From Desulfobacula sp. (lineage in GTDB: Bacteria; Desulfobacterota; Desulfobacteria; Desulfobacterales; Desulfobacteraceae), in assembly GCA_028280105.1 (NCBI GenBank), contig JANQML010000205.1:1-34611 (forward strand): 34,611 nucleotides of DNA, given 5' to 3'. This document shows positions 17,628 to 28,973 of the stretch, piece by piece. How positions within the stretch are numbered: position 1 is the stretch's first letter; each line of letters begins with the position of its first letter. The notes under the pieces are model-generated. The model saw only the letters and a list, made by a program, of their open reading frames with translations, was not told the origin of the DNA and searched no databases. The position numbers and the translations under genes are program-made.

Positions 17628-17818
17628 ACCGGTATCAGCCACTGCCGTGACATATCCGGGGTTGATCCCCATCTTAAAAAAGAAACGACCCGCCTGATCC
17701 ATAGGGGTTCGGTTCAAGGGGGTTGCCTTTTTTGACCCGTAAGGTTTTTCTCCCTTTGCAGACCAATTGGATGTATTATAGTTATGCTATATCAACTCTG
17801 TATAAATAAGGAGTGGCC

Positions 17819-19459
17819 ATGAAAGTTTCCGATCTGTTTGTCAAAGCGCTTGAAAATGAAGGTGTAAAGTATATTTTCGGTGTACCCGGTGAAGAGAACA
17901 TTGATTTTATAGAGTCTTTAAAGCATTCAAACATAGAACTCATCCTGACCCGCCATGAGCAGACCGCCGGTTTTATGGCCGCCACCTGGGGCCGGCTGAC
18001 TCATTCAACAGGGGTCTGCCTGTCCACGCTGGGGCCCGGGGCGACAAACCTGGTAACCTCTGTTGCCTATGCTCAGCTCGGCGGCATGCCGCTGCTGGTC
18101 ATCACCGGCCAGAAACCCATAAAAAAATCAAAACAGGGCAAGTTTCAGATCATCGATGTGGTGGATATGATGAGGCCCATTACCAAGTATACGAAAACCG
18201 TTGTTAACGGGGATGTGTTGCCGTCCATGGTCAGGGAGGCGTTCCGGATCTCCCTTGAAGAACGGCCGGGAGCGGTCCATCTTGAACTGCCGGAAGATAT
18301 CGCGGCAGAGCCCTGCCGGGAACGGGTCTTTTCCCTGCATCCCAAAACCCGGCCGGTGGCAAAACAATCCGTTATCGACCGGGCGGCCCAAATGATTCAG
18401 TCTGCCAAACACCCGCTTGTCCTGCTCGGAGTGGGGGCCACCCGGCATGGCTGTGTTGAATGGATCAACCGGTTTGTGGAAAAGACAGGGATTCCGTTTT
18501 TCAACACCCAGATGGGAAAAGGGGTGGTGGACGAACACAGCCGCCTTTATCTCGGCACGGCTGCCCTGTCCGAACACGATTATCTGCACTGTGCCGTTGA
18601 CCGGGCAGACCTGATCATTAATTTTGGTCATGATATTATTGAAAAACCCCCGTTTTTCATGCAGCCGGACGGACCCAAAGTCATCCACATCAATCATTTC
18701 TTCTCCCGGGCAGATGATGTCTACTTCCCCCAGCTGGATGTAGTTGGAGATATTACGGAAAATGCACAACTGCTGACACAGACCATTGAGGTGCAGCCGC
18801 ACTGGGATTTCTCCTATTTTCTCAAGGTGAAAAACGAGATCTGGAATCAGCTGGTCAAGGACGATCATGCAGACAGCTTCCCGGTTCTGCCCCAACGGCT
18901 GGTGGCAGATGTTCAAAAAGCCATGCCGAGCAACGGCATTGTTACACTGGACAACGGGATCTATAAAATCTGGTTTGCCAGAAGATACCAGGCGTCTCGG
19001 CCCAACGGCCTGCTGCTGGACAATGCACTGGCCACCATGGGTGCGGGTTTCCCGTCCGCCATAGCCGTCAAATTGGTCCACCCGGAAAAAAAGGTCGTAT
19101 CAGTCTGCGGTGACGGCGGATTTATGATGAACTCCCAGGAAGTGGAAACCGCTGTCCGGCTCAATCTCGATCTTGTGGTCATTATTTTGAACGATTCCGC
19201 ATACGGCATGATCAAATGGAAGCAGGAGCATATGGGATTTGATGTCCACAGCCTGGATTTCACCAACCCGGATTTTGTTCAATATGCCCGAAGTTACGGC
19301 GCAAAAGGGCATCGGATCACCCATGCCGGTCAGTTGTATCCGTGCCTGGCCGATTGTCTTGAAACCCCCGGGGTGCACCTGATCGACCTTCCCGTTGATT
19401 ATACCCAAAATTCCAAAGTACTGATCAATGATATTGAAAATATTACCTGTCTGCTTTGA
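17819..19459 (+). CDS. acetolactate-synthase-like thiamine diphosphate enzyme
   Basis: This 546-residue ThDP enzyme has the three-domain pyruvate-oxidase/acetolactate-synthase layout. Glu47 in RHEQTAGFMA activates the cofactor. The central domain has LVLLGVGATR. The C-terminal ThDP motif is GDGGFMMN (431-438) with LNDSAYGMIKWKQ downstream. It most resembles acetolactate synthase large subunits, which join two pyruvates. No regulatory small subunit (ilvN/ilvH) is adjacent, so a catabolic (AlsS-like) or other 2-oxoacid carboligase role is possible. AAGGAG lies 5 bases before ATG 17819; a GTG inside that site was rejected. It stands alone, about 190 bases from the previous operon, and converges on the IclR gene. 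Use of a sulfonated 2-oxoacid cannot be excluded given the sulfonate cluster nearby. Confidence 0.8.
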   Translation: MKVSDLFVKALENEGVKYIFGVPGEENIDFIESLKHSNIELILTRHEQTAGFMAATWGRLTHSTGVCLSTLGPGATNLVTSVAYAQLGGMPLLVITGQKPIKKSKQGKFQIIDVVDMMRPITKYTKTVVNGDVLPSMVREAFRISLEERPGAVHLELPEDIAAEPCRERVFSLHPKTRPVAKQSVIDRAAQMIQSAKHPLVLLGVGATRHGCVEWINRFVEKTGIPFFNTQMGKGVVDEHSRLYLGTAALSEHDYLHCAVDRADLIINFGHDIIEKPPFFMQPDGPKVIHINHFFSRADDVYFPQLDVVGDITENAQLLTQTIEVQPHWDFSYFLKVKNEIWNQLVKDDHADSFPVLPQRLVADVQKAMPSNGIVTLDNGIYKIWFARRYQASRPNGLLLDNALATMGAGFPSAIAVKLVHPEKKVVSVCGDGGFMMNSQEVETAVRLNLDLVVIILNDSAYGMIKWKQEHMGFDVHSLDFTNPDFVQYARSYGAKGHRITHAGQLYPCLADCLETPGVHLIDLPVDYTQNSKVLINDIENITCLL

Positions 19460-19599: not shown

Positions 19600-20388
19600 C
19601 TACTGCCGCATGCCGGCTGTGGTGACCAGGTTCGAGGCTTCCGTGGCCAGGGTGAGCAGAACGGAAATATACTGTTTTTCGATGGCCTCCAGAGAATATT
19701 CTTTTGATGGAAAATCCAGGCTCACGGCGCCCACCACGGATTTGGTCTGCAGGTTCATCATGGGCGCTCCGATACTGATCACCCCGGTCATATACTCCCT
19801 GTCATTGATGGAATACCCCCTTGTCCGGGTGTTCCGGATATCTTTCCGGATCTCTTCGATGTCCACCAGGGTTTGAGGGGTCAGCCGCCGGGGTGCCAGG
19901 GAGGCAAAATAATGTTCCAGTTCGTCAGGTTCCACGTTGGCCAGCACGATCTTTCCCATGGCCCGGGCATAGAGTTCGTCCATGATCAGGGGCAGGTGGA
20001 ACGATACCAGGTTGGGCATTTCCCGGCGGTACAGGGAGATCAGTTTATGCCCGTCGATCAGGGCCGAGTCGATGGAGATGTGGTGTTCAAAAAACGTCTT
20101 GTCAATGATGGGCTTGATGCCCTGGTAGATGTCAAACCCGTGAAAACACTCATGGCCCATGGAAAACGCCTTGGGACCAAGGCGCAGGGATTTGTCGGTA
20201 ATGCTTTTTCGCAGAAATCCCAACTGGACCAGGGTGTTTACCAGGCGGTAGGTGGAGGTCTTGTTGATGCCCGTGAGGATGGATATCTCCGTCAGGGACC
20301 GGGAAGGGTTTTCTCTGCCGAACAGGTTCAGGATGGACAATCCTTTTTCAAGGGTTTTGGAAAAATACTGGTCTTGCTTGCTTGGCAT
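19600..20388 (-). CDS. IclR-family transcriptional regulator of the sulfonate cluster
   Basis: This 262-residue protein has an IclR winged helix-turn-helix at 8-70 (KTLEKGLSILNLFGRENPSR, then EISILTGINKTSTYRLVNTL) and an IclR effector domain at about 80-255. The effector domain shows YSINDREYMTGVISIGAPM and the usual final AVSLDFPS. It is divergent from the TRAP transporter operon, and the shared 230-base region holds a palindrome placed just downstream of a good promoter. The simplest reading is a repressor lifted by the sulfonate substrate or an intermediate. Some IclR proteins activate instead. Confidence 0.9.
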   Translation of the reverse strand: MPSKQDQYFSKTLEKGLSILNLFGRENPSRSLTEISILTGINKTSTYRLVNTLVQLGFLRKSITDKSLRLGPKAFSMGHECFHGFDIYQGIKPIIDKTFFEHHISIDSALIDGHKLISLYRREMPNLVSFHLPLIMDELYARAMGKIVLANVEPDELEHYFASLAPRRLTPQTLVDIEEIRKDIRNTRTRGYSINDREYMTGVISIGAPMMNLQTKSVVGAVSLDFPSKEYSLEAIEKQYISVLLTLATEASNLVTTAGMRQ

Positions 20389-20618: not shown

Positions 20619-21638
20619 ATGAAAAAATTATTTCTTTTTCTGATCGTAGCAGCGATGTCCGTCTGTCTGATGGCGCCGACGCAGGTATTTGCCAAACAGG
20701 TACTGAAACTGGGATTCGGTGATCCCATCAACTCCGATCAGGGAGCTATTGCCAAGCAGTTCAAGTACCTGGTGGAAGGGTATACCGGCGGTGAGGTTGA
20801 AATTCAGCTGTTCCCGGGCAGTGCACTGGGAAATGAAACAGAAATGCTGCAGAACACCCGCAGCGGGGAACTGGACCTGTGCATGCTGTCTGTCCCCAAC
20901 CTGTCACCGTTTTCACGTAAAATCAACATCCTGACCTTCCCTTATGTCATCAAGAGCATGCGGGATGCCGTCACCATCACCACGGGCAAACTGGGCGCAC
21001 AATGGAATGAGATCCTGCAAAAAGAAGCCGGTATCCGGATTCTGGCCTGGACCTATTCCAATTTCCGTCACCTGACCAATTCAAAACGGAAAATCACCAG
21101 CATGGCCGATCTTGAAGGCCTGAAAGTCCGGGTTCCCCAGAACGCCCTGATGATCGCATCCTACGAGGCCTGGGGGGCGAACCCCACCCCGATGGCATGG
21201 CCGGAGACCTTTACCGCGCTGCAGCAGGGCGTGGTGGACGGTCAGGACAATCCCTATATTGTCAACTACACCATGAAGTTCCATGAAGTGCAGAAATACA
21301 TTACACCGCTGCATTACCAGTTCTCCCTGCAGCCCATGATTGTTGGTGAAAAACATTTCCAGAAAATGGATCAGAAGCTAAAAGACATCCTGGTCCGGGC
21401 CGGTATCGAAGCCCAGCAGTACTGTGTACTGTTCCAGATGGAAGAATCTGAAAAAGCCAAGCAGGCAATGCTGGACGCCGGCATGGAATACAGTGAATTC
21501 TCCGACGAAGACAAGATGATTGAATTGGCCAAGGAAAAAGTATGGCCCAAATACTATGACAAGGTCGGCGGCAAGGAAGCAGTGATGGACGTGGTGGCAG
21601 AGCTTGAAAAAGCTGACAAAGCCAGGCAGGCCCAGTAA
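20619..21638 (+). CDS. dctP: TRAP transporter substrate-binding protein (DctP family)
   Basis: This 339-residue periplasmic protein has a Sec signal peptide: MKKLFLFLIVAAMSVCLMAP, then a cleavage site after TQVFA at about residue 25. The DctP family signature GLKVRVPQN holds Arg171, the conserved residue that grips the carboxylate of the ligand in most TRAP systems. The family block WPETFTALQQGVVDGQDNP is at 194-212. It captures an organic anion and hands it to the membrane subunits encoded next. The downstream enzymes suggest a small sulfonate such as DHPS, cysteate or a related compound. GGGGAGG lies a few bases before the ATG. It is the first gene of the operon controlled from the IclR intergenic region. 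Confidence 0.92.
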   Translation: MKKLFLFLIVAAMSVCLMAPTQVFAKQVLKLGFGDPINSDQGAIAKQFKYLVEGYTGGEVEIQLFPGSALGNETEMLQNTRSGELDLCMLSVPNLSPFSRKINILTFPYVIKSMRDAVTITTGKLGAQWNEILQKEAGIRILAWTYSNFRHLTNSKRKITSMADLEGLKVRVPQNALMIASYEAWGANPTPMAWPETFTALQQGVVDGQDNPYIVNYTMKFHEVQKYITPLHYQFSLQPMIVGEKHFQKMDQKLKDILVRAGIEAQQYCVLFQMEESEKAKQAMLDAGMEYSEFSDEDKMIELAKEKVWPKYYDKVGGKEAVMDVVAELEKADKARQAQ

Positions 21639-21735
21639 TCACCTGATTCCCGGGTAATGACTGTTGAAACGGGAGGGTCTCCTCTGAAAACTGGGGAACC
21701 CTTCCTGAACAAATTCAAAAATGAGGAGCAAAAAG

Positions 21736-22326
21736 GTGGCTCTCAGCAGTATTCTGAAATCTTCGATCACTGTTCTGGACAATATTGAAGGATACCTGTG
21801 TAAATTCTTCCTCAGTTTTTTTGTGATCCTTCTGTTCTTCCAGGTGATCATGCGGACTGTTTTCCAGAATTCCCTTGCCTGGAGCGAGGAAGCGTCCCGG
21901 TTCGCTTTTGTCTGGTTCTCCTTTCTGGGGGCCTCCTATGCGGCACGGCTGGGGGCCCACAACAGGGTCACCTTTCAGTTCAAACTGTTTCCCAAAATCG
22001 TAGGAAATGTTTCCCAGCTCATTGCAGACGGTATCTGGCTGATATTTAACGCCATCATGACCGTCAAAAGTATTGAAGTCATCCGGGACATGATGGAATA
22101 TCCGTTTTATTCACCGGCCCTGGATATCCCCATGCAGTATGTGTACATGCTGTTTCCCTTCACCTTCACCCTCATGAGCGTCCGGATCATCCAGGTCAAT
22201 ATCCTGAAACATATTTTAAAACGGGAGATCGTGGATGTGGACGACATTTCGTCGGATATTGAGGATATCAAGCGGGACATGAGAATCGATTCTCGTGATG
22301 ATATGGATGAAGGGAGGGTATCATGA
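21736..22326 (+). CDS. dctQ: TRAP transporter small membrane subunit (DctQ family)
   Basis: This protein of about 196 residues has four hydrophobic helices, the DctQ layout. FLSFFVILLFFQVIMRTVF is helix 1, and WSEEASRFAFVWFSFLGASYA is the family signature after it. It links the binding protein to the large permease subunit. GTG at 21736 has GAGGAG 7 bases upstream and was chosen; the in-frame ATG at 21721 lacks a site. The C-terminal tail is unusually long and charged (DVDDISSDIEDIKRDMRIDS) and overlaps the start of the large subunit by four bases (ATGA). Confidence 0.88.
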   Translation: MALSSILKSSITVLDNIEGYLCKFFLSFFVILLFFQVIMRTVFQNSLAWSEEASRFAFVWFSFLGASYAARLGAHNRVTFQFKLFPKIVGNVSQLIADGIWLIFNAIMTVKSIEVIRDMMEYPFYSPALDIPMQYVYMLFPFTFTLMSVRIIQVNILKHILKREIVDVDDISSDIEDIKRDMRIDSRDDMDEGRVS

Positions 22327-23603
22327 TTTCATCGGTATTGTTTGGCGCATTCGGCATCCTTCTGGTGATTGGCGCCCCCATTGCGGTCGCTTTGGGCATG
22401 GCAGCCATGGCTGCGTTCATGTCCATCGACAAGGATGTTACCACCCTGGTGCAGATCGCCTATAACTCGGTCAATTCGTTTCCGGTTATGGCCCTGCCCG
22501 CCTTTATCCTGTCCGGCGCCCTGATGCAGGGATCCGGTATTTCAAGGCGGCTGGTGGCGGTTGCCGAAGCACTGGCCGGCCGTATGGCCGGAGGCCTGGG
22601 CGCCTCCACCGTGCTGGCCTGCCTGTTTTTCGGCGCCATATCCGGATCCGGACCGGCTACCACGGCCGCTGTGGGCATGCTCATGATTCCGGCCATGGCC
22701 AGAAAAGGATATGACCGCAGCTATGCATCTGCTATCACAGCTTCATCCGGGGGTCTGGGAATTGTAATCCCCCCCAGCATTCCCATGGTGATTTTCGGGG
22801 TGACCGCCAGTGTATCCATCACCCAGCTGTTCATCGCCGGGGTGTTTCCGGGTCTGCTCATTGCGAGCGGTATCATTCTTCTCAATTATTTCATCAGCAA
22901 AAAAAAGGGGTACAAACCTAACGCAGATGAGTGGTCCCTAAAAGAAACCCTGGTAACCATCAAGGATGGATTCTGGGCATTGATGGCGCCTGTGGTGATC
23001 CTGGGCGGGATCTATTCCGGGTTTTTCACACCCACGGAAGCCGCTATTGTGTCGATTTTCTACACCCTGTTCGTGGGCATTTTCATTTACCGGGAACTTA
23101 AACTGCCCGCCATTTTCAAAGCCCTGGATTCCACCACTTGGCTGTCCGGCCGGGTCCTGATCATTCTGTTCACGGCCCAGGCTTTCGGCCGTCTTCTGGT
23201 GCAGTACAAAATTCCGGATGTTATTGCCGCCTGGCTGTTGGCCCTGACCGGCAATGTCTACATCATCTGGGCTCTGGTAATTATTTTCCTGATTCTGATC
23301 GGCATGTTCATGGAGACCCTGGCCACCATCATGCTGGTGACTCCGGTACTGCTACCGGTTATGACCAGTCTGGGGGTGGACCCCATCCATTTCGGCGTGG
23401 TGCTGGTGATGTGCTGTGAAATCGGGTTTGAAACTCCGCCTTTGGGAGAAAATCTGTTCATAGCATCCGGCATTGGAAAGGTGAGCATTGAAGAGATTTC
23501 TTTGAAAGCAATTCCATTTTCAGTCATACAGATCTTGGCCGTGTTTATCGTGGCATTTATACCTGGATTCTGCCTCTGGCTTCCCAAAGCTTTCGGGTAT
23601 TGA
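22323..23603 (+). CDS. dctM: TRAP transporter large permease subunit (DctM family)
   Basis: This 426-residue membrane protein with about 11-12 helices is the sodium-coupled transport subunit. Family motifs include the first helix SSVLFGAFGILLVIGAPIAVALGMAA and the SGSGPATTAAVGMLMIPAMA turn at about 111-130. The block SSGGLGIVIPPSIPMVIFG lies at about 143-161, and the C-terminal PLGENLFIASGI at about 377-388. Residue count and motif order match DctM. The four-base overlap with dctQ is usual for these pairs. Together the three genes make a complete high-affinity importer. Confidence 0.93.
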   Translation: MISSVLFGAFGILLVIGAPIAVALGMAAMAAFMSIDKDVTTLVQIAYNSVNSFPVMALPAFILSGALMQGSGISRRLVAVAEALAGRMAGGLGASTVLACLFFGAISGSGPATTAAVGMLMIPAMARKGYDRSYASAITASSGGLGIVIPPSIPMVIFGVTASVSITQLFIAGVFPGLLIASGIILLNYFISKKKGYKPNADEWSLKETLVTIKDGFWALMAPVVILGGIYSGFFTPTEAAIVSIFYTLFVGIFIYRELKLPAIFKALDSTTWLSGRVLIILFTAQAFGRLLVQYKIPDVIAAWLLALTGNVYIIWALVIIFLILIGMFMETLATIMLVTPVLLPVMTSLGVDPIHFGVVLVMCCEIGFETPPLGENLFIASGIGKVSIEEISLKAIPFSVIQILAVFIVAFIPGFCLWLPKAFGY

Positions 23604-23702
23604 TGTCCTATAGATACGTCCCCGGAATCATCAGCAGAAGAATCAGAACAGATACCCACACAAGAGATGCGCTTAAATAATCAAATATGGAGAATGCGAT
23701 AA

Positions 23703-25016
23703 ATGCAGCATTTAAAAAAAGCGGTGAAAACCGCGGAATCCCACAGTGAAAGCATCCGGCCGTCCGTCGAAAAAATGCTGGCCGATATCCGGGCCGACCG
23801 GGAAAAAGCGGTGGAAGCCCTGGCATTGAAGTTTGACAACTGGACTGAACCGTTCATCCTCAGCGAGGAAAAAAAACAGCAGTTGATCGACACGGTAGCT
23901 GAGCCGGTCAAAGACGATATCCGGTTTGCCCACCACCAGGTGTCGGCATTTGCCAAAGCCCAGAGAGACAGCATCCAGGAATTTGAAACCCAAGTATACC
24001 CAGGCGTCCGCCTTGGCCAGCGGATCATTCCCATGGATGTGGCCGGGTGCTACATCCCCGGGGGCCGGTTCGCTCATGCCTGTTCCGCCATCATGAGTGT
24101 GGCCACGGCAAAGGCGGCCGGGGTGAAGACCGTTATCGCGGCCTCCCCTCCCCGGGGAAAGAGCATCGATCCGGCCGTTGCTTATGCCATGGATATCGCT
24201 GGAGCCGACATCATCCTGGAGATGGGCGGGGTTCAGGCCATTGCCACCATGGCTTTCGGGCTGTTCACCGGGAAACGGGCCAATATCCTGGCCGGGCCGG
24301 GCAATGCCTATGTGGCGGAAGCCAAGGCTCTGCTGGCCGGATCAGGCGAATGCACCATCGACGTATTTGCCGGTCCCACTGAATCCGCCGTGATTGCCGA
24401 TGACACGGCCGACCCCATGACCGTTGCCGTGGACCTGATGTCCCAGGCCGAGCACGGGTATGACTCTCCCGTGTGGCTGTTCACCGATTCAAAGGCCCTG
24501 GGTGAGAAGGTGCTGGCGCTGATGCCCAGAGTGATCGATGACCTGCCGGATCCTGAGGTGGCGACCGCTGCCTGGCGTGATTACGGGGAGATCATTTTGT
24601 GCAAAGACTGGCGTGAGATGGCTGTGGCCAGCGACCAATATGCCCCGGAGCATGTCCAGGTGATGACAAAGGACAACCAGTGGTGGTGCGACCATTTGAC
24701 CGCCTACGGGTCTCTGTTTATCGGGGAGTACTGCACCGTGGCCCAGGGGGACAAGTGTTCGGGTACCAACCATATCCTGCCCACCCGCAAGGCCGGGTAT
24801 TATTCAGGAGGTCTGAACGTGCACAAGTTCCTGAAAATCTGCACCTATCAGGAGATTGAAAAACAGGCCTGCCAAGAGATCAGCGCCCGGGCTTCCCGGC
24901 TGTCCAGGGTGGAAGGCATGGAAGGCCATGCACGGGCCTGTGACTGGCGCCTGAAAAAGTTCTTCCCGGACCAGGAATGGGATTTCACGGTCTATTCCCA
25001 GAAAGATTATTCATAA
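23703..25016 (+). CDS. hpsN: HpsN-type histidinol-dehydrogenase homologue (sulfopropanediol dehydrogenase)
   Basis: This 437-residue NAD- and zinc-dependent alcohol/aldehyde dehydrogenase has the HisD fold. All HisD zinc ligands are present: Gln248 and His251 (SQAEHGYDSP), Asp350 (GDKCSGTNHILPT) and His409 (EGHARA). The catalytic Glu316-His317 pair (APEHVQ) is also present. It is not in a his operon, and the GDKCSGTNHILPT...YSGGLNVHKF region is of the HpsN type. HpsN oxidises (R)-2,3-dihydroxypropane-1-sulfonate (DHPS) to sulfolactate in two steps. HisD itself turns an amino alcohol into an amino acid, so cysteinolate to cysteate is an equally good chemical guess with CuyA two genes downstream. 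GGAGA lies 9 bases before the ATG. It is the fourth gene of the TRAP operon. Confidence 0.82.
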   Translation: MQHLKKAVKTAESHSESIRPSVEKMLADIRADREKAVEALALKFDNWTEPFILSEEKKQQLIDTVAEPVKDDIRFAHHQVSAFAKAQRDSIQEFETQVYPGVRLGQRIIPMDVAGCYIPGGRFAHACSAIMSVATAKAAGVKTVIAASPPRGKSIDPAVAYAMDIAGADIILEMGGVQAIATMAFGLFTGKRANILAGPGNAYVAEAKALLAGSGECTIDVFAGPTESAVIADDTADPMTVAVDLMSQAEHGYDSPVWLFTDSKALGEKVLALMPRVIDDLPDPEVATAAWRDYGEIILCKDWREMAVASDQYAPEHVQVMTKDNQWWCDHLTAYGSLFIGEYCTVAQGDKCSGTNHILPTRKAGYYSGGLNVHKFLKICTYQEIEKQACQEISARASRLSRVEGMEGHARACDWRLKKFFPDQEWDFTVYSQKDYS

Positions 25017-25038
25017 CCGCGGTCAACACTCAGAAAGG

Positions 25039-26271
25039 ATGGATATGTCTGCTCCCTTGGAACACCCTTTGACGTTTACCAAGAGTTTCACCCGGCAGGA
25101 ACCCATTTCCGGACCGGCCATTGACAATGCCCTGGAAGTGTTGCGGTCCGGCCGGCTTCACCGGTACAATGTGGTCAAGGACGAGGCCTCCCAGACCGCG
25201 CTGCTGGAAAAAGAGTTTGCCCAGTACATGGGCTCCCGGTACTGCCTGGCGTGTGCCTCCTGCGGCAGCGCCATGTATTTGGCGTTGAAAAGCGCCGGAG
25301 TCCGGCCCGGGGATGGCGTGCTGTGCAATGCCTATACCCTGGCCCCGGTACCGGGCGCCATCCACAACACCGGGGCCGGCATCATCCTGGTGGAGATCAC
25401 GGATGACTATACCATTGATTTTGACGACCTGGCGGCCAAAGCGGCAGAAAAACATGTCAAGTGTTTCATGATGTCCCACATGCGGGGACATATCGCCGAC
25501 ATGGACCGGATCCTGGAAATCTGCCGGCAGTACGGGATTACGCTGATCGAAGACTGCGCCCACACCATGGGGGCAAGGTGGAACGGCCGGTTGTCCGGAT
25601 CGTTTGGCACGGCCGCCTGCTTCAGCACCCAGACCTACAAGCACATGAACTCCGGAGAGGGGGGCCTGCTGGTCACGGATGATCCGGACCTGATGGCCAG
25701 GGCCATCATCTATTCCGGGTCCTACATGAATTACGATCTGCACCTGTCCCGGCCGGACAACGCCGTGTTCGAATCGATCCGGGAACTGGTGCCCAACTAC
25801 TCCTGCCGCATGGACGACCTGAGGGCCGCTATTCTCAGGCCCCAGCTGGAGATCCTGGATGACCAGTGCCAAAGGTGGAACCGGCGGTATCAGCTCCTGG
25901 AGTCCCGGCTGAACCGGATCCCGGGCCTCACCTGTCCGCAAAGGCACACGAAAGAACAGTATGTGGGCAGCTCCATCCAGTTCAACCTGCACACGGACGA
26001 TCCCGCTTTGATCCGCCGGTTTCTGGATACCTGTCTTTCACGGGGTGTGGCACTCAAGTGGTTCGGCAACAAACGGCCGGTGGGATTCACCAGTGCCTAC
26101 AGCAGCTGGAAATATTTTGACAATCTGCCGAAATTGCCCAATACCGACCGTATTTTGGCCGGGATGTGCGACATGCGGATTCCGCTGACCTTTGAGATGG
26201 CGGATTGTGAACGGATCGCACAGATCATCGCGGATGTGGCGGCCCAGGTGCTGCCTGCCGACCCTGATTGA
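25039..26271 (+). CDS. DegT/DnrJ/EryC1-family PLP aminotransferase
   Basis: This 410-residue PLP enzyme belongs to the sugar-aminotransferase (DegT) family. Key parts are ACASCGSAMYLALKSAGVRPGD (cofactor phosphate loop), IEDCAHTMGARWNG (the Asp that contacts the pyridine nitrogen) and CFSTQTYKHMNSGEGGLLVT with the PLP Lys201. Family members usually transaminate keto sugars. Here it lies between hpsN (22 bases upstream) and cuyA, so it probably makes or recycles an amino sulfonate. Candidates are cysteate from sulfopyruvate, or cysteinolate from the 2-keto form of DHPS, which is ketose-like. No sugar biosynthesis genes are nearby. The specific substrate is inference. Confidence 0.85.
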   Translation: MDMSAPLEHPLTFTKSFTRQEPISGPAIDNALEVLRSGRLHRYNVVKDEASQTALLEKEFAQYMGSRYCLACASCGSAMYLALKSAGVRPGDGVLCNAYTLAPVPGAIHNTGAGIILVEITDDYTIDFDDLAAKAAEKHVKCFMMSHMRGHIADMDRILEICRQYGITLIEDCAHTMGARWNGRLSGSFGTAACFSTQTYKHMNSGEGGLLVTDDPDLMARAIIYSGSYMNYDLHLSRPDNAVFESIRELVPNYSCRMDDLRAAILRPQLEILDDQCQRWNRRYQLLESRLNRIPGLTCPQRHTKEQYVGSSIQFNLHTDDPALIRRFLDTCLSRGVALKWFGNKRPVGFTSAYSSWKYFDNLPKLPNTDRILAGMCDMRIPLTFEMADCERIAQIIADVAAQVLPADPD

Positions 26272-26415
26272 CAACCACGGCCCGGGACCGCAGCCGGGGA
26301 TAAAACCATTAGCTGCCGGGAATCCGCTTAACACCGGATCCTTAACGCGATCTTTCCATTACCATCATAAAAGGAACCCCCTCCTTAAAAACCCATTAAA
26401 ATATAAGGAATTCCC

Positions 26416-27417
26416 ATGAACTTTACACGATTTCCCAGACGCAAATATATTCAGACCCCCACGGTCATCGAACCCATGCCGGCATTGAGCCGGGCTTTGG
26501 GAGGAAATGTCAACCTGTTTGTCAAACGCGACGACCAGCTGCCAGGCGCTGCCGGGGGAAACAAAACCCGGAAACTGGAATTCTGCATTGCCGATGCCCT
26601 GGAAAATGACGCCAACACCATCATCACATGCGGAGCCGTGCAGTCCAACCACTGCCGCCTGACCCTGGCCTGGGCCGTTAAAGAGGACCTGGACTGTCAC
26701 CTGGTGCTGGAAGAACGGGTCAAAGGCTCTTATAAGAAAGAAGCCAGCGGCAACAATTTTCTGTTTGAACTCATGGGTGTCAAAAGCATTGAGGTGGTGC
26801 CCGGCGGCACGGACATGATGGCGGCCATGGAAAAAAAAGCCGAGGCCTTGAAAGCGGAAGGCAGACATCCCTATATCATTCCCGGCGGTGCCTCCAATGC
26901 CATCGGGGCTTTGGGATATGCCTCGTGTGCCGCGGAAACCATGGCCCAGCTCAATGACATGCACCTGAACATCGACCACCTGGTGGTGCCGTCCGGTTCC
27001 GCCGGGACCCACGCGGGCATGGTGGTGGGCATGACCGCCATGGAGACGGGCATCCCGGTGAGCGGCATGAATGTGTCCCGGGAAAAGACGGTCCAGGAGG
27101 AGATCGTCTACAAACTGGCAAAAGAGACCGCGGCCAAACTGGGGATGGAAAAGGGTATTCCCCGTGAAAAAGTAGTCTGTTTTGACCAGTATGTGGGGCC
27201 GGGATATTCCATTCCCACGGACAGCATGGTGGAGGCGGTGGAACTGTTTGCCCGGACCGAAGCGATTCTGCTGGATCCGGTTTACTCCGGCAAAACTGCA
27301 GCCGGCCTCATCGACCTGGTCAGAAAAGACCATTTTGCCTCCGGCGCCAATGTGCTGTTTCTTCATACGGGAGGATCACCGGCCCTGTTTGCCTACATGG
27401 ATTCCTTCCGGAAGTGA
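26416..27417 (+). CDS. cuyA: L-cysteate sulfo-lyase-like PLP enzyme (CuyA)
   Basis: This 333-residue PLP enzyme belongs to the ACC deaminase/D-cysteine desulfhydrase family. The PLP Lys is Lys50 in GGNKTRKLEF. TCGAVQSNHCRLT and PSGSAGTHAGMVVGM are also family blocks. The segments VLEERVKGSY, ASGNNFLFELMGV and VVPGGTDMMAAM match the CuyA branch, as recalled from the Silicibacter (Ruegeria) enzyme, rather than DcyD. CuyA splits L-cysteate into pyruvate, ammonia and sulfite. No sulfite exporter (CuyZ/TauE type) follows, in line with sulfite being reduced by the cell. A D-cysteine desulfhydrase activity cannot be ruled out. AAGGAA precedes the ATG; the gap to the aminotransferase is about 145 bases. 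Confidence 0.8.
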   Translation: MNFTRFPRRKYIQTPTVIEPMPALSRALGGNVNLFVKRDDQLPGAAGGNKTRKLEFCIADALENDANTIITCGAVQSNHCRLTLAWAVKEDLDCHLVLEERVKGSYKKEASGNNFLFELMGVKSIEVVPGGTDMMAAMEKKAEALKAEGRHPYIIPGGASNAIGALGYASCAAETMAQLNDMHLNIDHLVVPSGSAGTHAGMVVGMTAMETGIPVSGMNVSREKTVQEEIVYKLAKETAAKLGMEKGIPREKVVCFDQYVGPGYSIPTDSMVEAVELFARTEAILLDPVYSGKTAAGLIDLVRKDHFASGANVLFLHTGGSPALFAYMDSFRK

Positions 27418-27527: not shown

Positions 27528-28133
27528 CTATCTTTCTTTCTTCCGGCCATAAAACTGCCGGGCCTTATGCTTGTTGCCGCAGGTTGCCATGGAGCACCAG
27601 CGGCGGCGGTTATTGGGGCTGCTGTCCAGAAAAAGCCAGCCGCACCGGGGCCCCGGGCATTGTTTGATTCGTTTTTTTAAGGGCGAGATTAAGAGTTCAG
27701 CAGCCGAGTAAGCAACCGGCGCCTCAATCCACGACAGATCATGACTCCGGCAGACAAAATTGAGATCTTTTTCCGTTACTGTCATGACAAGACCGCCGGT
27801 CTGTCTGAGGCATTGGTTGAAAAGGGCAAGGGTTGCCGGGTCCGGCGGCTGGGCTGAGACAAACAACTGCCTTAACATGTAACGGAACTGATGCAGCCGC
27901 GCCATCCTCGGATCGGTTTTCCGATTGGTTGGATCCAAAGAATCCGCCTCCCCTGGAAAGCGGATCAGGCCAACCCTCACCCCCCAGGCCAATACCTGGG
28001 AAAAATCAGTTAACCGGTCATCCACCGAATCCATATCCAGCCAGTTGGTTGTATTGATAAAATCGAGGCACAGACGGCCTCCGACCATGGCCATCTCATT
28101 GATTGCCGGAAGATTTCTCTGTGACGCACCCAT
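27528..28133 (-). CDS. CGNR zinc-finger (ABATE-domain) transcriptional regulator
   Basis: This protein of about 201 residues has the N-terminal ABATE stress-response domain, opening with VGGRLCLDFINTTNW. The C-terminal CGNR zinc finger reads CPGPRCGWLFLDSSPNNRRR followed by WCSMATCGNKHKARQFYGR, with four Cys as zinc ligands. CGNR proteins are poorly characterised DNA-binding regulators. The ATG at 28133 has GGAGG 5 bases upstream. An ATG 30 bases earlier has GGAGG 15 bases upstream and looks worse. It is divergent from azlCD and probably regulates these; repeated TATAACCTCCAT elements lie in its leader. Confidence 0.85.
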   Translation of the reverse strand: MGASQRNLPAINEMAMVGGRLCLDFINTTNWLDMDSVDDRLTDFSQVLAWGVRVGLIRFPGEADSLDPTNRKTDPRMARLHQFRYMLRQLFVSAQPPDPATLALFNQCLRQTGGLVMTVTEKDLNFVCRSHDLSWIEAPVAYSAAELLISPLKKRIKQCPGPRCGWLFLDSSPNNRRRWCSMATCGNKHKARQFYGRKKER

Positions 28134-28197
28134 TATAACCTCCATTCCGGTTGACATTCCCATTTTTATTTTATATAACCTCCATAATGGTTATATA
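28134..28197. promoter_or_regulatory. repeat and palindrome cluster between the CGNR gene and azlC
   Basis: TATAACCTCCAT occurs twice as an exact direct repeat (28134-28145 and 28174-28185), 40 bases apart. The second copy is part of the perfect inverted repeat TATATAACC-N8-GGTTATATA (28172-28197). The first copy covers the ribosome binding site of the CGNR gene. This is the pattern of an operator array and suggests autorepression, with control of azlCD too. Confidence 0.5.
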
Positions 28198-28268
28198 GAT
28201 TTTATACCATAATGCAACTGTTAAACCCAAATCCACCTCAAGTTTTTGTTTAAAAGAAGAAGGATTCA

Positions 28269-28973
28269 ATGCCCTTTTTTGCCGAAAAAAAAGCTACGTT
28301 TACCCTGAACGGCACAATTCGGGGTGCAAAGACCATCTGGCCGGTGGCTGTGGCCGCTCTGCCCTTTGGCATCACTTTCGGGGTATCTGCCGGGGAAGCC
28401 GGGCTTCCCGCTTCAACCACTCTTTCCATGAGTGTGCTGGTCTTTTCAGGTGCGGCTCAGTTTGCAGTTCTTGACCTCTGGTCGGACACGGTTCTCTTGT
28501 TCCCGCTGGTGCTCGCCCTGCTGGCTGTAAACGCCCGGAACATTATCATGGGGGTATCGGTTTATCCCTGGATCGGCCGGCTCTCCAAATATAAAATCGC
28601 CATGATAACTTCCGTGTTAACCGATGCCAACTGGGCTGTTTCCATGGACGCTCATGGGAAAGGCGAGCGGGATGCCGGGATCCTTCTGGGCAGCGGTTTG
28701 CTGCTCTGGCTGACCTGGGTGGCAGGTACGGGGATCGGCGTCTTTTTTACCGGTTTTACCGTCTCACCGGAATCCCTGGGTCTGGATCTTTTGATGCCGG
28801 TCTTTTTCATTACGGTCCTGATCGGGATGGGAAAACAAAAAGGCGTGTTCATACCATGGACGGCAGCAGCAGTTGTCTCTCTTATCACTTCATATCTGGT
28901 CCCGGGAAGCTGGTACATCATCACCGGTGCCCTGGCCGGTGGGATTGCGGGGGTGTGCCGTGATATCCGTTGA
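28269..28973 (+). CDS. azlC: AzlC-family branched-chain amino acid / small-molecule exporter subunit
   Basis: This 234-residue inner-membrane protein has about 6-7 helices and the AzlC signature blocks: PVAVAALPFGITFGVSAGEAGL, SVLVFSGAAQFAVL and LLAVNARNIIMGVSVYPWI. With AzlD it forms a two-part exporter, best known for branched-chain amino acids and their analogues. AAGAAGG lies 5 bases before the ATG. The gene is divergent from the CGNR regulator and overlaps azlD by 14 bases. Export of an amino-acid-like sulfonate intermediate is conceivable given the neighbours, but nothing in the sequence shows it. Confidence 0.9.
   Translation: MPFFAEKKATFTLNGTIRGAKTIWPVAVAALPFGITFGVSAGEAGLPASTTLSMSVLVFSGAAQFAVLDLWSDTVLLFPLVLALLAVNARNIIMGVSVYPWIGRLSKYKIAMITSVLTDANWAVSMDAHGKGERDAGILLGSGLLLWLTWVAGTGIGVFFTGFTVSPESLGLDLLMPVFFITVLIGMGKQKGVFIPWTAAAVVSLITSYLVPGSWYIITGALAGGIAGVCRDIR

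Follow-up and report, generated by a model that had tools for sequence, protein, structure and literature searches.

We analyzed a 34,611-nucleotide stretch of DNA from Desulfobacula sp. (contig JANQML010000205.1; the window) and found on its plus strand, at positions 20619-27417, an operon that appears to be one example of a widespread cassette for the catabolism of an aminated C3-sulfonate. The most likely substrate, judged from sequence, is cysteinolate (2-amino-3-hydroxypropanesulfonate), a reading to which we assign a probability of about 0.65. Genes for a tripartite ATP-independent periplasmic (TRAP) importer, an HpsN-type dehydrogenase, a DegT-family aminotransferase and the sulfo-lyase CuyA lie in a row, with an iclR gene beside them. 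An earlier note on this DNA had described the same arrangement, and the open reading frames, the family profiles and the CuyA score (533.9 bits) confirm it. The broader proposal in that note, a C3-sulfonate route ending in sulfite and possibly running via cysteinolate, is supported by the sulfonate motif of the HpsN-type enzyme, the match to the CuyA model, the presence of CuyB in most relatives, the finding of no partners for the degradation of 2,3-dihydroxypropane-1-sulfonate (DHPS) beside the cassette, a different importer type and dsrA in the genome bin that contains the window. The operon and its regulator comprise the following genes.

19600..20388, minus strand: IclR-family regulator (PF01614 and PF09339), divergent from the operon, 230 bp to dctP
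20619..21638, plus strand: DctP, TRAP solute-binding protein of the cassette type (PF03480, 235 bits)
21721..22326, plus strand: DctQ, TRAP small permease (PF04290, 97 bits)
22323..23603, plus strand: DctM, TRAP large permease (PF06808, 370 bits)
23703..25016, plus strand: HpsN-type dehydrogenase of the HisD/HpsN family (PF00815, 418 bits; HpsN-like by score and motif), proposed to convert cysteinolate to cysteate with NAD+ in a four-electron oxidation
25039..26271, plus strand: DegT/DnrJ/EryC1/StrS aminotransferase (PF01041, 200 bits), proposed to act on C2 of cysteinolate as a transaminase or epimerase
26416..27417, plus strand: CuyA, PALP-family protein above the curated cut-off of the model 'D-cysteate sulfo-lyase CuyA' (NCBIfam NF052482, 533.9 bits, cut-off 450)

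From dctP to cuyA, the genes are separated by 82, -4, 99, 22 and 144 bp. In the proposed pathway, the TRAP system would import cysteinolate, and the HpsN-like enzyme would oxidize its C3 alcohol to the acid with two NAD+, yielding cysteate. CuyB, where present, would interconvert L- and D-cysteate, and CuyA would cleave the D form to pyruvate, ammonia and sulfite; the sulfite would then pass to DsrAB in these sulfate reducers, or to an exporter in many aerobic hosts. DegT would either form cysteinolate from 3-hydroxy-2-oxopropanesulfonate or invert one enantiomer via that ketone, as HpsO and HpsP do for DHPS. The argument for this substrate runs backward from the end of the pathway: since CuyA and CuyB act downstream, the HpsN-like enzyme should deliver cysteate, which would make cysteinolate its substrate. 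We favor cysteinolate over DHPS because hpsO, hpsP and suyAB are not found beside the cassette, its DctP is distinct, DHPS clusters reside in some of the same genomes and one Ruegeria copy does without DegT; amine-demethylation-type genes near some copies also suit an amine substrate.

The HisD-family protein of the window has a solved HpsN (sulfopropanediol 3-dehydrogenase) as its closest solved relative (485 bits, against 212 bits for the best histidinol dehydrogenase) and is 52.3% identical to HpsN of Cupriavidus pinatubonensis HN-2. The four-electron oxidation of an alcohol is established chemistry for histidinol dehydrogenase (HisD), and the window protein, predicted to carry out the same type of reaction, shares with HisD the fold family and PF00815. 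It differs from HisD in its His126-type sulfonate motif and is only 36.1% identical to a HisD-like protein encoded elsewhere in the window's bin (G000:C115). The motif, G-R-Y-A/S-H, reads GRFAH in the window, and F replaces Y in 4 of 11 DHPS-type rows of our alignment as well. At the position of His126, all 30 cassette rows and all 11 DHPS-type rows carry His, and both HisD-like rows carry Cys. This is the sole named residue that sets the former apart from the latter: the zinc and catalytic residues Q248, H251, H411, D352, E318 and H319, together with K353, are all kept in the window and occur in the two HisD-like rows too, and so do not discriminate. Across the 30 cassette and 11 DHPS-type rows, the zinc, catalysis and sulfonate residues of CpHpsN are retained except Ser226, which is Ser or Thr. 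By its motif, then, the window protein is predicted to be a sulfonate enzyme. We had also considered a change of Ser226 to Thr as a mark of amine substrates and dropped it, since 6 of the 11 DHPS-type rows carry Thr too. Further alignment columns specific to particular clades were likewise set aside.

These findings bear on a role outside sulfonate metabolism, in which a histidinol-type or other amino-alcohol dehydrogenase would act alongside a D-cysteine desulfhydrase. Family-level annotations of the homologues (hisD, D-cysteine desulfhydrase) would suit such a role. We consider it very improbable in light of the HpsN score and His126 motif, the CuyA and CuyB proteins that pass curated models, the sulfite/sulfate exporter-type genes in 7 of 10 plasmid stretches described below and the separate HisD-like gene in the bin.

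In a tree of 53 HpsN rows, from which seven loci were excluded as near-copies or, for L039, as a partial copy (L003, L039, L051, L052, L053, L057 and L058), the window protein falls inside the HpsN clade (support 100/100); the residue counts above leave out 10 more rows (those classed as other than HpsN, L078, L093 and L094). Cassette HpsNs fall into three groups that lie apart: the clade of the window protein together with Pseudomonas (support 100/99), which also includes the HpsN of genome G087; a set of seven rows from Alphaproteobacteria (94/93); and two Paracoccus rows nested in a DHPS-type group. The tree thus places the cassette enzymes in separate lineages, and we claim no number of repeated origins. 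Four label changes are needed, three of them forced by starred branches, and they could be gains or losses; for this reason we set aside a repeated origin of the cassette HpsN.

Published structures indicate that an amine at C2 is plausible for such an enzyme. In one report (PMC11382572), L-cysteate is bound by CpHpsN like sulfolactate, and the amino group of the HisD ligand occupies the same zinc site; by analogy, a C2 amine would be a plausible substrate feature of the HpsN-like enzyme.

The operon is a conserved cassette common to sulfate reducers and several unrelated bacteria. The earlier note had proposed looking for a conserved hpsN-degT-cuyA order in other genomes, and a conserved cassette with these genes was found. 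Searching 145 related genomes for DegT (E at most 1e-90) gave matches in 25 genomes at 26 places. All 25 also encode an HpsN at least 64% identical to that of the window, and a single additional genome, G087, encodes an HpsN of this kind but no DegT (Fisher p about 3e-27, uncorrected for the relatedness of the genomes). HpsN directly adjoins DegT at 25 of the 26 places; at the remaining one (G079), the contig starts inside DegT. CuyA lies within the operon at 23 of the 26 (two are cut by a contig end). The three places without it are in G028, whose contig stops short of this point and which has a CuyA above the cut-off on another contig; in G042, where CuyA is encoded more than 1 Mb away; and in G124, to which we return below. 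CuyB was detected by tblastn at 20 of the 26 places (including L004/L058, L002 and L009), and the single Desulfobacterota CuyB that we tested scores 280.6 bits against the CuyB model, above its cut-off of 190. It was not seen by tblastn in the window copy, in G124 or in G048, G028, G044 and G019, where the contig or fetched stretch ends nearby. RidA, of the enamine/imine deaminase family, occurs at 16 of the 26 places, once fragmented. In the window itself, tblastn with E up to 1 gave no match to CuyB and chance-level matches only to RidA.

Outside this group, DegT was found on 11 plasmid records of other Pseudomonadota, and 10 of these carry CuyA, DegT, CuyB and HpsN within about 9 kb. The ten belong to Pseudomonas MPC6, Ancylobacter, Ensifer, two Paracoccus, two Mesorhizobium, Shinella, Leisingera and Polaromonas, the last with HpsN and CuyA broken; the eleventh, from Roseovarius W115, encodes a 38% identical DegT in a different context. 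Plasmid proteins scanned against the curated models passed in every case (CuyA 4/4, CuyB 3/3). The importers vary, being of the TRAP type in Pseudomonas and of the TauABC type in Polaromonas and six of the eight alphaproteobacterial plasmids; Leisingera and P. seriniphilus have other ATP-binding cassette transporter genes close to the cassette. Sulfite/sulfate exporter-type genes (YeiH/'putative sulfate exporter', TauE/SafE) are present in 7 of the 10 plasmid stretches, and the two that were tested match PF03601. A plasmid of Ruegeria SCSIO 43209 (L105) carries CuyA-CuyB-HpsN but lacks DegT in the 15-kb stretch examined, and the plasmid is absent from the DegT matches.

Genes for cysteate degradation also occur by themselves. 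In an alphaproteobacterial sample, CuyB was above the cut-off in 21 of 385 genomes (22 places), with DegT within 1.5 kb at 3 of the 22. We fetched wide stretches for 10 of these places, including all three with DegT. HpsN is present in two of those three, and the other seven stretches are CuyA-CuyB without DegT and HpsN; cysteate degradation therefore stands alone in these genomes, and the cassette represents its upstream extension. With the CuyA-CuyB system, the cassette has in common CuyA and, in most copies, CuyB, both passing curated models; it differs in the addition of HpsN and DegT upstream and, for the window copy, in having no linked CuyB.

We compared the cassette with known DHPS clusters, in which hpsNOP acts with suyAB or slcD-comDE-xsc (C. 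pinatubonensis, roseobacters). An HpsN-family enzyme, TRAP import and sulfite as the end product are shared by both systems, whereas the cassette has no hpsO, hpsP, suyAB or comDE beside it, has another DctP type and contains CuyA, CuyB and DegT instead. For this comparison we fetched 11 of 163 plasmid HpsN records (L099-L109), of which six were of the DHPS type, one was a cassette (L105) and four had other contexts; four more DHPS-type loci came from a genome search. All 10 DHPS-type loci have HpsO and HpsP, five have SuyB, and two have ComE and SlcD. Queries for HpsP, SuyB, ComE, Xsc and SlcD found no match at E at most 1e-10 in 25 Desulfobacterota-type and 11 plasmid cassette stretches, and HpsO matched only generic short-chain dehydrogenases/reductases (SDRs) at 29-32% identity in L049; beside the window operon there is no match to hpsO or hpsP. 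In two genomes (G023 and G077) a DHPS-type HpsN locus and a cassette coexist, and Paracoccus seriniphilus DSM 14827 carries a DHPS cluster and a cassette on two separate plasmids. The binding proteins separate in the same way: in local alignments, DctPs are 48-87% identical within the cassette type (n=6) and 58-89% within the DHPS type (n=8), and 24-33% between the two. With 52-87% identity to the five other cassette DctPs and 25-31% to the eight from DHPS clusters, the binding protein of the window importer is, by sequence, not of the DHPS type.

These data also bear on a route from DHPS itself. R-DHPS would be oxidized to sulfolactate by HpsN, then to sulfopyruvate by an unlinked sulfolactate dehydrogenase, and aminated to cysteate by DegT, before CuyB, where present, and CuyA complete the degradation. 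The residues of the window HpsN match those of DHPS enzymes, and Ruegeria pomeroyi and Roseovarius are described as having a sulfopyruvate-cysteate-CuyA branch whose aminotransferase gene is unknown (PMC11382572). The window's bin, moreover, encodes three Ldh_2 proteins that resemble the sulfolactate dehydrogenase ComC (up to 280 bits, below the cut-off of 500). We nevertheless regard this route as unlikely. No HpsO, HpsP or sulfolactate dehydrogenase was found to accompany the cassette, the one exception being a gene of the Ldh family in Mesorhizobium L110, some 6 kb upstream of cuyA; separate DHPS clusters with a different DctP occur in some of the same genomes; and the Ruegeria L105 copy has no DegT. 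In 12 cassette genomes, hand-picked for the ComC, dsrA, SlcD and CuyA searches (for CuyA partly because it was absent locally), the ComC model was passed in none; weaker homologues were found in three, including the window's bin, and nine gave no ComC-family match at all. The cut-off was passed by only 1 of 14 control genomes and is possibly too strict for bacteria. SlcD gave partial, weak matches only, in 9 of the 12 genomes, in a search that did not extend to SlcC-type dehydrogenases. A function of DegT in linking sulfopyruvate and cysteate, which the earlier note had offered as one option, is accordingly disfavored, in that no sulfolactate dehydrogenase was found to travel with the cassette (SlcC was not searched, and the bin has the ComC homologues below the cut-off).

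DegT itself is predicted, from its sequence and modeled structure, to belong among sugar, inosose and 3-amino-5-hydroxybenzoate (AHBA)-type aminotransferases. It shares the sequence family, fold and Lys/GEGG region of the DegT/DnrJ/EryC1/StrS enzymes (AHBA synthase, inosose and sugar transaminases), and the lysine expected to bind pyridoxal 5'-phosphate (PLP), Lys201, is invariant in eight of eight aligned rows. It differs from them in scoring only 112.7 bits to its best solved relative and in being located in sulfonate gene clusters. The structure model is of moderate confidence (mean predicted local distance difference test score 77.7), Lys201 lies in one of its less confident parts, and the Foldseek matches of the model to DegT-family structures are informative at the family level only. 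Because the DegT tree is poorly resolved, with 18 of 44 inner branches starred and very long branches to the outgroup, we base no claim on it. Among 274 gammaproteobacterial genomes, 12 contain DegT, and we fetched 8 of the 12 places wide. Three of these eight stretches encode a binding protein of the taurine type along with a class III aminotransferase, and two of the three an SDR as well. In L008/L163, L152 and L156, DegT lies by such genes, with the SDR in the first two and without HpsN or CuyA. Their setting perhaps reflects nitrogen scavenging from amino-sulfonates. DegT is thus closely tied to HpsN in Desulfobacterota and on plasmids, but only loosely elsewhere. Both settings would suit an enzyme that shifts the amino group of an amino-sulfonate, and in the cassette DegT probably acts at C2 of cysteinolate, either making or inverting it.

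Several observations weigh against cysteinolate as the substrate. The active-site residues of the window HpsN are identical to those of DHPS enzymes, and by sequence the sulfonate-site residues cannot discriminate between a hydroxyl and an amine at C2. CpHpsN is described as highly selective, with L-cysteate only a weak inhibitor (half-maximal inhibitory concentration 2.4 mM; PMC11382572). CpHpsN-like stereochemistry would yield L-cysteate, CuyA prefers the D form and the window copy has no CuyB. In G087 (L078), two DHPS-type DctP genes follow a window-clade HpsN (65%), and DegT was not found in the stretch, nor CuyA in the genome; the HpsN clade alone therefore does not fix the substrate. Linkage is also incomplete: L148, a CuyA-DegT-CuyB locus, has no HpsN in 18 kb; seven of the eight wide gammaproteobacterial stretches have neither HpsN nor CuyA (only L154 has both); and three other DegT genomes have no HpsN or a DHPS-type one only, and no CuyA above the cut-off. 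In Vibrio hannami, there is no HpsN beyond a 33% identical HisD and no CuyA above the cut-off. The Ldh-family gene in L110 and the ComC-like proteins of the window's bin point the same way.

The neighbors of some cassettes suggest, by sequence, a methylated amine substrate in some hosts. Amine-demethylation-type genes lie near five cassettes (L083, L086, L088, L105 and L148). They encode oxidoreductases predicted to use flavin adenine dinucleotide, with DAO, GCV_T and GCV_T_C domains, which resemble dimethylglycine/sarcosine dehydrogenases (scanned with Pfam in L083 and L086, assigned by similarity in L088 and L148), and MTTB-family proteins (scanned in L086, assigned by similarity in L105 and L148). 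At L046:6609-7736 and L047:6953-7585, one copy has an MtaA-like (URO-D) gene between DctM and HpsN and the other a corrinoid-binding protein gene just before HpsN. A related aminated sulfonate, such as N-methylated cysteinolate, might accordingly be demethylated first in some hosts and then follow the cysteinolate pathway. We think this quite improbable: most examined loci have no such neighbor, betaine genes also occur nearby for other reasons, and we know of no natural methylated cysteinolate.

In G124 (L050:7930-9135), a threonine synthase-family PLP enzyme (NF006050, 657 bits) occupies the position of CuyA. The stretch contains no CuyB, and the genome encodes no CuyA above E 1e-60. This single case raises the possibility that the enzyme is an L-specific cysteate lyase replacing both CuyA and CuyB; such a lyase would need no racemase. 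We speculate more widely, and with considerable doubt, that the cassette encodes a general route for cysteinolate, methylated or not, in which HpsN scaffolds serve as cysteinolate:NAD+ dehydrogenases in several lineages, DegT is the amine counterpart of HpsO and HpsP, inverting C2 via the ketone, and the G124 enzyme cleaves L-cysteate directly. As to the fate of sulfite, dsrA is above the cut-off in all 12 cassette genomes tested, including the window's bin, a trait general to sulfate reducers and not specific evidence.

Cysteinolic acid is described (PMC8703288) as a widespread osmolyte of marine microalgae, with a content in some above that of dimethylsulfoniopropionate. In our literature searches on cysteinolate/cysteinolic acid, no listed paper names genes for its breakdown, and no listed title or abstract on cysteinolate/cysteinolic acid, CuyA, CuyB, or HisD with DegT and cysteate describes the cassette, closed papers being outside the scope of this search; we regard the cassette as new provisionally. 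Burchill et al. analyzed HpsN only where hpsO and hpsP were nearby (272 of 1000), a selection that does not cover the cassette. For Taurinivorans muris, which encodes homologues of both HpsN and CuyA and has its hpsN next to suyAB, no growth with DHPS or cysteate is reported (PMC10507020). If the cysteinolate reading is correct, the cassette would provide marker genes for cysteinolate breakdown in aerobes and sulfite-respiring anaerobes, a set of HpsN homologues would no longer be miscounted as DHPS degraders and a DegT aminotransferase would gain a new role.

The window contig may be foreign to its bin (G000, contamination 6.51%). A second, partial cassette copy in the bin, on contig C405 (L039), has CuyB. 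Copies from another genus of the family (g14) share 88-92% identity with the window DegT, while those of same-genus genomes and C405 share 68-71%. One further gene was checked, encoding a P-type ATPase, and its best match (79%) is in yet another genus, with none in its own. Upstream of iclR, positions 17813-19459 encode a relative of catabolic-type acetolactate synthase (NF006187, 843.5 bits, cut-off 509), and downstream of cuyA lie genes for a CGNR zinc-finger regulator and an AzlC-family exporter (27528-28973). Toward the right end of the window are genes for a RhuM-family protein (PF13310, 30747-31820) and a sulfatase-family protein (PF00884, 32540-34108).

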